64,000 bases of DNA. Origin: Gloeobacter kilaueensis JS1. Its GTDB lineage: Bacteria > Cyanobacteriota > Cyanobacteriia > Gloeobacterales > Gloeobacteraceae. The position numbers and the translations under genes are program-made. The notes beneath the pieces are model-generated. The model worked only from the letters and a program-made list of their open reading frames with translations. It had not been told where the DNA came from and searched no databases. This document shows, in pieces, positions 27,129 to 31,658 of the stretch. The DNA is taken from the NCBI RefSeq assembly GCF_000484535.1, contig NC_022600.1:2356001-2420000 (forward strand), read 5' to 3'. Position 1 is the first letter of the stretch, and every line of letters begins with the position of its first letter.

Positions 27129-28778
27129 TTAGACGGCGCTTGGCCTGTGGCCGGTTGTGGGCACTGCCGAGGTGACGCTCAAGCCGGCGGGCTGCCAGAC
27201 GCGCAGGGTGGCGTCGCGGATGCCGCCGTAGAGCAGATGGCCATCGGGGCTGAACTTGAGCGATAAGATCCACTCCGGCTGGCGGAAGGTGCGCAGCAGT
27301 CGTCCCGAGTCGGCCTGCCAGAAGCGGACGGTGCCGTCGATGCTGCCGCTTGCGACCAGTTTGCCGTCCGGCTCCAGGGCCACCGCCGTTACCCGGTCGC
27401 GATGGCCGCGCAGGCGGGTGCGCAGGCGGCGGGTGGGCACATCCCAGAGGGCCACCGTCCCGTCCCAGCTGGCGCTTGCCAGGGTGCGGCCATCCTGGCT
27501 CCAGTCGAGGGCGCGCACGGCGTCGGTGTGGCCTGTGAGGGTGGCGAGCAAGCTGCCGGTGGCCGGGTCCCAGAGGCGAATTTTGTGATCTTTGCCGCCA
27601 CTGGCGAGGAGGCGCTGGTCGGGACTGAAGGCGACTGCAAAAGTCCAGCTCCGGGTGCGCAGACCGCGCAATAGCCTGCCGGTGCGCAGATCCCAAAGCC
27701 GAATGGTCCGATCGACGCCGCCGCTTGCAAGCTGGTGGCCGTCGCTGCTGATTGCCAGCGACCAGACCGGCTCGGTGTGGCCGACCAGGCTCGCGAGCAA
27801 GCTGCCGGTGGCCGGGTTCCAGAGGCGAATCTGTTGATCGCTGCCGGCACTGACCAGCGTCTTGCCGTCGGGTGTAAAGACAACCGTGCGCACCGGCCCG
27901 CGATGGGCGCTCAGCTTGCGCAGCACCAGCCCACCGTCGGCGCTCCAGAGCTTGACCGCGCCGGTGGCATCGCCACCGGCGTAATAGTGGCCGTCGGGGC
28001 TGATCGCCGTCGCCCAGATCGGGCTGGTGTGACTGACGAGCAGCCGCTCGCTGGCCCGCACCCAGGGCTGTTGCGGCGGCAGGGCGGCAACAGTTGGTCT
28101 GGAGGGGACACTCGCCCTCGGGCCGACTGTTGCAGAAGAGCGATACAGGTTGACGAACCCCGTGGCACAGACGACGATTGCCGCTGCGCTCGCCACCAGC
28201 AAAAGCGAGGGCCGCAATCCGCCTGAGCGCTCCTGCGGCAGTACTGCCCCCACTGCACCGAGCCGCTCGCTGGGGGCGAACAGTCGAATCGGCTGCCGTT
28301 TGCGGTAGATCGCTACAGCACTTTCTTGCAGTGCCCTGGGCACTGCAATGCCGGGACGGAGGGCCGCGTGGGCGATCAGATCGGCGAAGGCGGACGGGGC
28401 AGGCGGCTGTTTTAGATAGCGGCGCTCGATAAATTGGGACGGACCTGCCTCCAGACAGGCAAAGATCGCCGAAAGTTGCTCCTCATCGAGCGGGGCACAC
28501 AGGCAGTAACACAGAAAGTACGGCACGTTGGCCCGGCCCATCTCATCGCGGCCATCGTTGAACAACCAGCCAAACAGTGTGCGCTCACTCGCCGGATCCC
28601 AATGCACGATCGCTGCTCGAAAATCTGGGGGCGGCGGTGCGTAAGCGTCCCAGTAGCGCGCCACGATCTGCTCGCTAAAAGCATCGACCGTATCCGCATC
28701 GACGCGGTCGCAGGCCAGGGTGACAAAACCTTTTTCTGGAAGGCTGGTATAGATCAGGGGTTCTAAGGAGACAGACAT
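27129..28778 (-). CDS. Membrane-anchored WD40 propeller protein with novel N-terminal domain
   Basis: From ATG 28778 this gives 549 residues. Residues 1 to about 180 form a mixed domain I cannot name, with conserved-looking pieces YTSLPEKGFVTLA, HWDPASERTLFGWLFND and RANVPYFLCYCL. One membrane span follows (LLLVASAAAIVVCATGFV), then seven WD40 repeats, each with a GH/D...W-like end, making one seven-bladed propeller. The propeller would lie on the opposite side of the membrane from the N-terminal domain, probably outside. The GTPase gene lies 34 bases upstream on the same strand, so the two are almost certainly expressed together. Confidence 0.82.
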   Translation of the reverse strand: MSVSLEPLIYTSLPEKGFVTLACDRVDADTVDAFSEQIVARYWDAYAPPPPDFRAAIVHWDPASERTLFGWLFNDGRDEMGRANVPYFLCYCLCAPLDEEQLSAIFACLEAGPSQFIERRYLKQPPAPSAFADLIAHAALRPGIAVPRALQESAVAIYRKRQPIRLFAPSERLGAVGAVLPQERSGGLRPSLLLVASAAAIVVCATGFVNLYRSSATVGPRASVPSRPTVAALPPQQPWVRASERLLVSHTSPIWATAISPDGHYYAGGDATGAVKLWSADGGLVLRKLSAHRGPVRTVVFTPDGKTLVSAGSDQQIRLWNPATGSLLASLVGHTEPVWSLAISSDGHQLASGGVDRTIRLWDLRTGRLLRGLRTRSWTFAVAFSPDQRLLASGGKDHKIRLWDPATGSLLATLTGHTDAVRALDWSQDGRTLASASWDGTVALWDVPTRRLRTRLRGHRDRVTAVALEPDGKLVASGSIDGTVRFWQADSGRLLRTFRQPEWILSLKFSPDGHLLYGGIRDATLRVWQPAGLSVTSAVPTTGHRPSAV

Positions 28779-28812
28779 AGCGATGAAGAGCGATACAGAA
28801 CAACGATAATCC

Positions 28813-29667
28813 TCAGCGGGTTTTGATGGGCACAGACTGCTGGGTGGGCGGCACCAGCAACTTTTCCAGCACACCCGGTTCTAGTGGCAGCGCCGTCTTG
28901 CCGCCTATCAGTCCAGCCAGCCAGCGACTCATCGCCTGTGCCCAACCGTCGCGCTCAGCAGCATAGATCTCAGAGGCCAGCCAGACAAATGCCTCCGCTG
29001 CGTGCTGTACCTCGATGGTAGACTCAGCAGCCTGGGTGCGAATATTGACTCCACTCAAAAAGCCCCGGCACTGACTGCCCAGCGCCTGCAACTGCTCGAC
29101 AAAAACCTGCAACTTCTGCTGCAGTGCAGCGTACGGATCGCTCGCCTGCAGCTGATCGCACTTGGTAAGCACGATCGCAAAGGGATAGCGCAGGTGATTG
29201 AACGCCGCCAGCCGGGCAATCGTCAGCGCCTGATCGCGGATGTCGGCTGTTTTTTCGAAGTAGCCTTCCTCGTGCAGTAGCGCCTGGGCATCGAAGAAGA
29301 TGCAGCAGCCGTGGGAAGCCCAGGTCAGCTCTTGAAACGCAGCGCTCTGCTGATGGCAGATTTCGCCCGGAACATCCTGCCAGCGAAAGTGGCAGAGGGT
29401 GCGCCTGCCAAAAACTCCCCGGCCCTGGAGGGTGAAATAAAAGCTGCTGATACTGGCGGTGGCGGGCGGATACTCGCCGGTGCGGACCATGTAATTTAAA
29501 AGTTTGTCGATCCGCTCTTGCGATTCTAGATTGCGGCATTCGAACCAGAAGGGCCGTGCTCGATCCGGGCGGGTGCGTGAGCAACTGGCAGCCAGAAAGA
29601 CTGTCTTGCCCACTCCCCGCTGACCAATGCTCAAAAGGGTGAAGGTTTTATGGTTTCTGGGGGGCAT
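28813..29667 (-). CDS. P-loop GTPase partner of the WD40 protein
   Basis: The product is 284 residues from ATG 29667; upstream in-frame codons lack a good start. It has a Walker A G1 motif GQRGVGKT near residue 15, a G3-like WQDVPGE near 105, and a G4 TKCD near 165, which together indicate a small TRAFAC-type GTPase. There is no membrane span. The C-terminal third (about 200-284) is helical and specific to this family. It lies directly before the WD40 gene. A role as a switch that controls the N-terminal domain of the WD40 protein is inference. Confidence 0.8.
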   Translation of the reverse strand: MPPRNHKTFTLLSIGQRGVGKTVFLAASCSRTRPDRARPFWFECRNLESQERIDKLLNYMVRTGEYPPATASISSFYFTLQGRGVFGRRTLCHFRWQDVPGEICHQQSAAFQELTWASHGCCIFFDAQALLHEEGYFEKTADIRDQALTIARLAAFNHLRYPFAIVLTKCDQLQASDPYAALQQKLQVFVEQLQALGSQCRGFLSGVNIRTQAAESTIEVQHAAEAFVWLASEIYAAERDGWAQAMSRWLAGLIGGKTALPLEPGVLEKLLVPPTQQSVPIKTR

Positions 29668-29819
29668 AAGCGTCGTTGCGCCGTGACGATAAGCTGAACG
29701 TTGCGCAGAGCTTACGAAGGTGGAAGGGCAAACTCCCCTCGCCCAGATGTTAGCGCGCATCGCCGCAGTTGATGCACCCTGCCGACAATCTCAATGACTG
29801 TTAACGTTCATCGGCGCAC

Positions 29820-29846
29820 AAAAAAACCGGTGGAGTGTCCACCGGT
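29820..29846 (-). terminator. Intrinsic terminator of rplB-rpsS
   Basis: ACCGGTGGA at 29826-29834 pairs perfectly with TCCACCGGT at 29838-29846 around a three-base loop. On the minus strand it is followed by a run of seven T. It closes the two-gene ribosomal transcript 18 bases after rpsS. Confidence 0.92.
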
Positions 29847-29863
29847 CCTTGCGTGTGGCTCTC

Positions 29864-30142
29864 TTAGCGTTTGCCCTTTTTGTCTTTGCCTGCGTGGCCT
29901 TTGAAGATGCGGGTGGGCACAAACTCGCCCAGCTTGTGGCCGACCATCTGCTCGGTGACGTAGACCGGGATGTGGTCCTTGCCGTTGTGGACCGAGATGG
30001 TGTGGCCGATCATCTGCGGTACGACCGTCGAGGCGCGCGACCAGGTCTTGATGATCCGCTTTTCGTTTTTGCTGTTTAGCGTCTCGATCTTGCGCAGCAG
30101 GTGATCGGCGACGAATACGCCCTTTTTGAGTGAACGTCCCAT
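29864..30142 (-). CDS. rpsS: 30S ribosomal protein S19
   Basis: This 92-residue protein is full-length S19. It opens [16 protein letters not shown], contains [23 protein letters not shown] and ends with the basic tail GKDKKGKR. S19 binds the head of the small subunit with S13. It follows rplB after eight bases and is followed directly by a terminator, so the usual downstream S10-operon genes (rplV, rpsC and others) are not here. Confidence 0.97.
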
Positions 30143-30150
30143 GACTGTGA

Positions 30151-30993
30151 TTAACCCCGACCGGAGACGGTTTTACGACGACGAATGATGAACTTGCCCG
30201 AGGGCTTTTTGCGGTTGCGGGTCTTGGTGCCGAGGGCACTCTTGCCCCAGGGGGTCTGGGGTTTGCCGCCGATCGGGCTTTTGCCCTCTCCACCACCGTG
30301 GGGGTGATCGACCGCGTTCATGACCACGCCCCGGTTGTGGGGCCGCTTACCGAGCCAGCGCTGCCGACCGGCCTTGCCGATCGAGATGTTTTTGGCATCG
30401 AGGTTGCCGACCTGACCGAGGGTGGCGTAGCACTCCTTGCGGACGATGCGCACCTCGCCGGAGGGCAGCCGCAAGGTGACGTAATCGCCCTCTCTGGCCA
30501 CCAGCTGGGCGACAGCCCCCGCAGCGCGGGCCATCTGGCCGCCCCGACCGGGCAACAGCTCGATGTTATGAACGTTGGAACCGAGCGGCATCTTCTCAAG
30601 GGGCAGGGCGCAACCGAGTTCGATCGGCGCGTCCTCGCCGGCACTGATCTGCGCTCCTACCTTCAACCCGACTGGATGAAGGATGTAGCGCTTTTCGCCA
30701 TCGGTGTACTGCACCAGGGCGATGCGGGCGTTGCGGTTGGGATCGTACTCGATGGCGAGCACCTCCGCCGGGATGCCCCGCTTGTCGCGCTTGAAGTCGA
30801 TCAGGCGATACTTGCGCTTGTGGCCGCCACCGCGAAAGCGGCTGGTGATCACACCCTGGTTGTTGCGGCCCTGCTTGCGGTGGTTGTACTTGGTGAGCTT
30901 TTTTTCGGGCTTGCTCTTGGTGACCTCGGCAAAGTCTGCACCGGAGCGCTGGCGCGTGCCCGGTGTCATTGGCCGATATTTACGAATGCCCAT
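30151..30993 (-). CDS. rplB: 50S ribosomal protein L2
   Basis: This 280-residue protein is full-length L2. It has the N-terminal [16 protein letters not shown], the SH3-like domain, and the C-terminal [18 protein letters not shown] loop that reaches the peptidyl transferase centre. ATG 30993 is preceded by AGGAG; longer in-frame sequence upstream is spacer. Genes normally preceding it (rplC, rplD, rplW) are absent, so L2 and S19 form a separate two-gene unit. Confidence 0.97.
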
Positions 30994-31013
30994 AGTGCAT
31001 CTGCTCCTACTTA

Positions 31014-31062
31014 CTGCCAGACAGGCAGTTCCGGCGGGCGGCTGGACCGGCTTGTTGCCGGT
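31014..31062 (-). promoter_or_regulatory. Two hairpins in the rplB leader
   Basis: ACCGGC at 31046-31051 pairs with GCCGGT at 31057-31062, and CTGCC at 31014-31018 pairs with GGCAG at 31024-31028. Both would form in the mRNA leader just before the rplB ribosome-binding site. They may be an autoregulatory ribosomal-protein leader, but this is not shown. Confidence 0.35.
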
Positions 31063-31113
31063 GCCACCACAATAGCGACAATGCACAAGTGTACAGAATT
31101 TTGAGACGTTCGT

Positions 31114-31380
31114 CTAGATCGACGCGGCCTTCTTGTTGAGAAACTGAATATCCGCCGGGTTGACGAAGTGGCAGCGCGCGTGAAAACCGTCTTCGGAATC
31201 ATCCACGCAAATATAAGCCCAGCCCGCCTCCGTTTCTTCGATGAGCGTATAGGTCTCCTCGGAGACGAAAAATCCCTGGTGGTTGCGCGTGTCCGGCAAT
31301 ACCTTGACGTGGGGCTTGACGCCGTGGACACGGTTTTCGGCCAACTCACCCGCACGCATCTGGATGATCTTGCTCTCCAT
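31114..31380 (-). CDS. Small soluble protein of unknown function
   Basis: This 88-residue protein starts at ATG 31380, eight bases after GGAGGTG, a strong ribosome-binding site that rejects the longer frame. It is a mixed alpha/beta polypeptide with one aromatic strand (EAGWAYICVDD) and a short basic turn (VKVLPDTRNHQG). The compact, acidic composition suggests a small folded cytoplasmic domain. I do not recognise the family. It is transcribed towards rplB, 120 bases away, and may share its transcript. Confidence 0.7.
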   Translation of the reverse strand: MESKIIQMRAGELAENRVHGVKPHVKVLPDTRNHQGFFVSEETYTLIEETEAGWAYICVDDSEDGFHARCHFVNPADIQFLNKKAASI

Positions 31381-31658
31381 AGCTCGACACCTCCGAGTAT
31401 TCCTGGATACCAAACTGGGTGCTGTCAGAGTACCATTCGCCTGCTTCATATGCGCTCACAATCAAGGCATTTTTAATTAAGTTTGAATACGTTTTCAACC
31501 TGTGGACTCCGGACATCGATCGCGGTCGTCCCTTTGATCCCCGCGCCCAGATGCCGCTCCAGGTAAGCTGGACGGCAGCGGGACTGTGTTAAACTGTCTG
31601 CGGCCCCATCCGGCAATTTGACTGGTGGTAGCGCCTGGCTGGTTCGACACCTCTATAT

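Follow-up and report, generated by a model that had tools for sequence, protein, structure and literature searches.

A cyanobacterial GTPase gene paired with the gene of a membrane-spanning protein that has a likely longin-type domain and exchangeable C-terminal parts

Two adjacent genes of Gloeobacter kilaueensis JS1 encode a small P-loop GTPase and a membrane-spanning WD40 protein, and together they form a pair that recurs in other cyanobacteria. They lie in a window of 64,000 nucleotides (contig NC_022600.1, positions 2,356,001 to 2,420,000 of the forward strand), which is the whole stretch analysed here; the genome is a single contig of 4,724,791 bases. Both genes are on the reverse strand of the window, the GTPase gene (28813..29667, 284 amino acids) being separated by a spacer of 34 bases (28779..28812) from that of its partner (27129..28778, 549 amino acids). 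The partner is composed of an N-terminal domain, which we name X (residues 1–174), one hydrophobic span and a WD40 propeller. The pairing of the GTPase with X is real, and the existence of a module is well supported. With about even confidence, we read it as a two-gene signalling module in which a GTPase switch works on a longin adaptor that carries exchangeable sensors or effectors. A wider reading is offered more tentatively, namely an undescribed transmembrane GTPase system for cyanobacterial signalling or regulated death, which would combine the longin adaptor with sensors (WD40, PBP) or caspase-like effectors.

An initial sequence-only reading of the window had given the coordinates, the GTPase motifs, the 34-base spacing, a seven-bladed WD40 propeller and one span, all of which hold, and had proposed a dedicated two-gene module. 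To this proposal the distribution of the two genes lends support. Thirty X loci from 26 genomes, all cyanobacterial by title, were assembled, with a 16-member X alignment as the query; the scan used a single peptide pattern, so that the number is a lower bound and a restriction to cyanobacteria is thereby not proven (loci are numbered L and genomes G). The GTPase is found within the same locus in 23 of the 30 and, in 21, its open frame lies at most 250 bp from the X frame, measured stop to stop. The distance is about 1.5 kb in L077, and both genes are in broken frames in L083. In the stretches examined no GTPase was found at L062, L064, L065, L070, L076, L078 and L081; those of L064 and L065 extend less than 1 kb upstream of X, and L070 and L078 share one assembly with the L079 pair. 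A GTPase fragment stands beside an open X-Roadblock gene in L020 and in L076 (Microcystis aeruginosa LEGE 91341, just upstream of X), and the GTPase frame is still open in L072 (Microcystis novacekii). These remnants fit an ancestral pairing, and X may outlive its GTPase.

Co-occurrence was assessed in two genome samples, which overlap each other and the 30-locus set; several contigs agree in length, those of L018 and L076 among them. Of 292 genomes of the phylum, 12 have X and 20 a match to the GTPase model (E ≤ 0.001); nine of these 20 GTPase matches are strong (E < 1e-20), and every one of the nine falls in a genome with X (Fisher p 6e-15 for co-occurrence, uncorrected for kinship). Of 388 genomes of the class, 36 carry X and 30 the GTPase at E ≤ 1e-10. 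Twenty-eight of the latter are strong matches, and every one of them is in a genome with X, which makes 28 of the 36 X genomes; one (G472) has stops in the gene. No genome has a strong GTPase match alone, and the two with a weak match alone (G125 and G155) have matches to other DO-GTPases. In addition, across 30 linked pairs (21 named loci, seven later regions and two of the source genome) the distances among X domains and among GTPases are correlated (r 0.89), none of 5,000 permutations giving a value as high. Two observations weigh against a strict partnership. X occurs without the GTPase in eight of the 36 genomes (G005, G095, G097, G316, G340, G352, G380 and G405), and the distance correlation retains the species background, nearest neighbours agreeing in only 14 of the 30 pairs. 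Desmonostoc vinosum has two pairs (L071 and L080), and within each the X and the GTPase share their nearest relative.

Four copies each of the GTPase and of X are present in the source genome, one of the GTPases being degenerate; two of each form adjacent pairs. The fourth GTPase paralog (L004, contig positions 3487001–3487630) has an altered P-loop and has lost DxPGE, while TKCD is kept; it is possibly a pseudo-GTPase. In plasmids no X was found at E ≤ 1, and of 91 pattern matches in viral contigs none was confirmed.

Domain X (28257..28778) matches no named family, as the sequence-only reading had held. For the window copy the sole listed Pfam match, NA-iREase3 (E 0.05, below the family cut-off), was taken as chance. 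When the 30 X members were compared with Pfam at E ≤ 10, seven families were touched, none of them convincingly, and the TagF and GAP1 models were not among them; the best-represented candidate, RA_3 (six of 30 members, best E 0.016), was likewise taken as chance, and Roadblock/LC7 (PF03259) was not matched by any of the 30. An idea formed by eye, that X is a GAP1-N domain, found no support in the hmmscan of the same members. By sequence, there is no solved relative at E ≤ 10. The conserved positions of X include D78, G81, R82, P86, Y87 and F88.

The same reading had considered the domain unplaceable, which stands for sequence families and is superseded at the level of structure. An AlphaFold2 model built from 30 sequences (mean predicted local distance difference test, pLDDT, 89.7) shows the order β-β-α-β-β-β-α, which is that of the strands and helices of longin domains. 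The first three Foldseek matches, a search that the sequence-only reading had suggested, are TagF (E 2.5e-3), a chain of the FLCN-FNIP2-Rag-Ragulator complex and a Commander/DENND10 chain. With VIA-align, X superposes on TagF with a Z of 8.8 (153 residues aligned, root mean square deviation 3.4, 13% identity), and the next matches, at Z 4.7–6.9, are folliculin complexes, TagF again, the Lst4 longin domain, TRAPP, Ykt6, KICSTOR-GATOR1, Sec22b, SEDL and SRX. All but one of the first 24 structural rows, the exception being a designed protein, are TagF or proteins with longin or Roadblock-related domains. Several points limit this assignment. No Foldseek match to the PDB reaches E ≤ 1e-3, unrelated folds such as GFP-like barrels come next in that list at E of about 0.1–0.4, and in the VIA-align list LuxR-type, GAF and LOV domains come after the longin rows, at Z 3.7–4.6. 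Furthermore, according to the warning of the tool, a Z below 8, which applies to all but TagF, may merely reflect a common arrangement. X is therefore likely, rather than proven, to have a longin-type fold, nearest to TagF and to eukaryotic longin domains in the predicted model.

The GTPase carries the motifs GQRGVGKT, WQDVPGE and TKCD. Its own sequence gave no DO-GTPase2 match, only Ribonuclease_T2 and NACHT being listed at E ≤ 10, both below their cut-offs; the former (E 4e-4, in a P-loop protein) was taken as chance. It is assigned to the DO-GTPase2 group through its relatives, because it is 30–50% identical to 21 of them and 20 of these match that family. In all, 20 of the 22 aligned members match DO-GTPase2 (PF19993) at E ≤ 0.01, with a best value of 4.5e-10; L003, L055 and L056 exceed the family cut-off of 27 bits, and the source-genome paralog L002 is just under it, at 26.6. 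Residues D98, P100, G101 and E102 are invariant in the 22 GTPases. A conserved Walker B glutamate is given as a trait of DO-GTPase2 in the available part of PMC7159879, and the glutamate of DxPGE, E102 here, may correspond to it. The structural model (mean pLDDT 80) has RagD as its first Foldseek match (E 2.9e-6) and aligns with the G domains of Rab, Ras, Gtr1 and RagA at Z of about 15. Against a closer placement, it ties with the translation GTPase BipA (Z 15.4), so the fold singles out neither Ras nor Rag. No solved relative was found by sequence at E ≤ 1. Of 22 GTPase relatives, 20 have a predicted C-terminal span, after which some carry TPR repeats; the window copy, L054 and L072 have no such prediction.

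X is the constant element of the partner protein, and its C-terminal part is exchangeable. In the window protein a single span, defined by hydropathy only (residues 191–209, 28152..28208), is followed by seven Pfam WD40 stretches forming a β-propeller (approximately residues 243–549, 27129..28052; PF00400, E 1.2e-69). Among the 30 X proteins of L054–L082, 17 are of this X-WD40 type, confirmed by Pfam; in a recheck, 26 of 27 WD40 candidates (these 17, nine from later regions and the window protein) were confirmed, the exception being presumably L100. A PBP_like_2 domain occupies the position of the WD40 part in L055 and L065, and L064 appeared by eye to be a cut version of the same, with no match in the tail scan. 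Roadblock-like tails were recognized by eye in L058, L062, L072, L076 and L077 and, with L105 and L109, number seven; six of 12 tails scanned match Robl_LC7 at E ≤ 0.01, L077 above the family cut-off and L058 and L109 below it. X is fused to Peptidase_C14 in L070, the proteins of L059 and L081 stop after the span, and L078 and L079 bear other tails. Fifteen further regions, picked for unusual length or kinship and thus non-random, contain 16 X proteins: two X-caspase-span-WD40 (L097 and L098), two X-caspase-span (L099 and L100), one X-pentapeptide (L102), six X-WD40, two with Roadblock-like and three with other tails. The GTPase is present in eight of these 15 regions. The sequence-only reading had described the module as a GTPase with a membrane WD40 protein, but the module is not tied to WD40, which is one of several exchangeable parts, alongside PBP_like_2, Roadblock, caspase and pentapeptide.

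The five caspase fusions differ in their surroundings. L097 has the GTPase 12 bases away and is the only one with it alongside; none was found in the stretches examined at L070, L098, L099 and L100, nor at E ≤ 1e-10 in the X-caspase genomes G340, G405 and G380. The genomes of L098, L099 and L100 lack this GTPase, and X may have a different partner there. The usual catalytic histidine reads tyrosine in four of the five, L098 retaining it; pseudo-variants with such a substitution are known in cyanobacteria, according to the available part of PMC8283722. Only L055 among the X-PBP genes has the GTPase alongside. By eye, L017 also encodes an X-span-PBP-like protein, and its genome (G005) shows no GTPase at the threshold applied. 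Near two other X genes of the source genome (L091, 7573–10002, and L094, 10653–12597), a PBP_like_2 gene and a gene for a Tll0287-like membrane protein, which has HAMP and TPR matches, are found within about 4 kb.

These parts can be arranged in a mechanism, which is a reasoned proposal. The GTPase would act as an on-off switch of the small-GTPase type, and X would be a longin-type platform that binds it on the inner side of the membrane. Longin and Roadblock domains bind Rag, Rab, SR-beta and MglA GTPases. The fusions of X with Roadblock/LC7, itself a GTPase-partner domain, together with the gene pairing, point to X binding a small GTPase. The single span would link X to an exchangeable module on the far side, here the WD40 propeller, which might bind a protein or another ligand, and ligand binding could alter the way in which X loads, unloads or recruits the GTPase. 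What the analysis shows is the two genes, their conserved pairing, well-predicted folds and the swapping of parts; we infer the physical binding, the side on which the WD40 part lies, what it binds, which way the signal runs and what its output is. The role of the module may be in conflict or in ordinary sensing.

The surroundings of the window pair bear on that role. The GTPase gene is next to rpsS (29864..30142, named by eye), and on the other side of the locus there is a penicillin-binding-protein gene, also named by eye. The order rpsS followed by the pair recurs in L054 and L107. A terminator-like hairpin with a T-run is located between rpsS and the GTPase gene (29815..29850, reverse strand; −18.2 kcal/mol, z −4.9), which makes it probable that the pair is transcribed separately from the ribosomal operon; the hairpin is not listed by the consensus terminator scan, and a promoter scan found none, 0.4 being expected. 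Compared with L054, the GTPase is 52%, X 53% and the span plus WD40 part 54% identical, versus 95% for L2, 91% for S19, 90% for prs, 79% for DUF92 (names by eye) and 70% for the product of 31114–31449 (labelled L23, an unverified label). The pair has thus either diverged fast or been replaced at this locus by a distant copy. The S10 ribosomal operon seems to be split, L2 and S19 (by eye) being at 29864–31086 of the window and rplV (L22) about 0.4 Mb away, at contig positions 2781735–2782046.

A plausible alternative, though not one we would bet on, is a nutrient or envelope sensor, in which extracytoplasmic modules on X report solutes or the state of the envelope and some housekeeping response is fine-tuned by the GTPase. 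The replacement of WD40 by PBP_like_2, the PBP_like_2 and Tll0287-like genes near the other source-genome X genes and the position of the pair after rpsS in three genomic contexts all agree with it, as does the presence of a DO-GTPase in phage-shock operons, for which a membrane-related stress role is predicted in the available part of PMC11237479. The caspase fusions, the patchy spread (36 of 388 genomes), the faster divergence of the pair than of its neighbours and the single X-PBP gene with an adjacent GTPase argue against it.

Less probable, and weakly supported, is a role in conflict or cell death, whereby an invader or damage signal would flip the GTPase through X and effectors, fused or separate, for instance caspases, would kill or arrest the cell, the whole being a cyanobacterial form of DO-GTPase conflict system with X in place of GAP1. 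Membership of the GTPase in the DO-GTPase2 group, the constant X joined to varying C-terminal parts, the divergence of the pair among better-conserved neighbours and the five Peptidase_C14 fusions, two of them also with WD40 and one (L097) tightly linked to the GTPase, speak for it. However, the other four caspase genes have no adjacent GTPase, and the histidine substitution follows a pseudo-variant pattern. No caspase is present in the X proteins of the source genome, PADLOC reported only HEAT-ARM_XIII, over the WD40 region, and the setting of the window pair is, by eye, no defence island.

It is rather unlikely that the WD40 part is instead a cytoplasmic scaffold held at the membrane, the span being an anchor without transmembrane signalling. 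Propellers are mostly intracellular scaffolds, and the charge bias at the span is weak: of 21 relatives, 13 are more positive ahead of it, seven are less so and one shows no difference, and the window protein has three lysine or arginine residues on each side, figures that count against the orientation we prefer. That orientation, X in the cytoplasm and WD40 on the far side of the membrane, is favoured by the occurrence of a periplasmic-binding-type domain (PBP_like_2) in the WD40 position and of caspases between X and the span. Residues 205–549 contain no cysteine, which fits an extracytoplasmic site and is a weak pointer. Finally, that the GTPase and X-WD40 genes are unrelated neighbours, as their additional separate occurrence in the source genome might suggest, is contradicted by the conserved adjacency and co-occurrence and most improbable: they are not neighbours by chance.

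The DO-GTPase–GAP1 conflict systems are among the closest known systems. According to the available part of Kaur et al. 2020 (PMC7159879), they pair DO-GTPases with GAP1 and occur chiefly in other phyla, cyanobacteria not being named there among the main ones. They share with the module a DO-GTPase2-type GTPase whose neighbouring gene encodes a multidomain partner, variable fused parts (caspase-superfamily peptidases are among the GAP1-N1 effectors in the same portion of that source) and an association with the membrane, whereas the partner domain here is X. GAP1-M was found in none of 59 and GAP1-N2 in none of 39 cyanobacterial genomes, the source genome included (E ≤ 0.001), the genome searches covering these two models; GAP1-N2 was also absent from two actinobacterial plasmids. 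The resemblance to GTPase-associated conflict systems seen in the sequence-only reading thus extends to the GTPase family and, in the genomes sampled, not to its published partner. As in the GAP1 systems, a constant core is combined here with effector or sensor parts that vary, yet four of the five X-caspase genes lack the adjacent GTPase. Since GAP1-M and GAP1-N2 are absent from the sampled genomes, this is a GTPase of a known family with a different partner, and not a member of the GAP1 systems.

The combination of a GTPase with a partner of the longin or Roadblock class recalls MglA-MglB and Rag-Ragulator, the more so in relatives with X-Roadblock fusions, but X is not a Roadblock domain by sequence, it belongs to a single-span protein with a swappable module, and its binding to the GTPase is proposed. 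TagF (9t0n, 6iz8 and 2qnu) is the closest solved fold to X but is distant in sequence and its Pfam model does not match X. It binds Fha and represses type VI secretion, as stated in the available part of PMC5995506; no type VI genes were noticed by eye beside the pair, with no search aimed at them. Cyanobacterial orthocaspases also combine Peptidase_C14 and WD40 in one protein (PMC8283722, available part), but here X precedes the caspase, and WD40 follows the span in L097 and L098. Loci L084–L087 (G111, G125, G155 and G103) likewise have a DO-GTPase1 or DO-GTPase2 beside a partner gene, that of L087 with WD repeats by eye; their partners begin with another unnamed domain, and its homology to X was rejected, no profile match being obtained (E 0.9 and 0.77, from shallow alignments). 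In the same comparison the two L084–L087 partner groups matched each other (E 1e-4). By eye, the L084 locus further contains AAA and HSP70-like genes.

The DO-GTPase2 family is already known, and longin and Roadblock domains are already on record in bacteria (PMC4917890, in the part of its table available). The apparently new element is the pairing of the GTPase with X, a pair that no title or abstract opening describes among the open-licence PMC matches listed. If the proposed reading is true, the module would represent a new, GAP1-free branch of DO-GTPase systems. Control of small GTPases by longin and Roadblock platforms lies at the heart of trafficking and nutrient sensing in eukaryotes, and a compact bacterial longin adaptor with its GTPase and swappable sensors or caspases would then provide a simple test system for the coupling of platform to GTPase.

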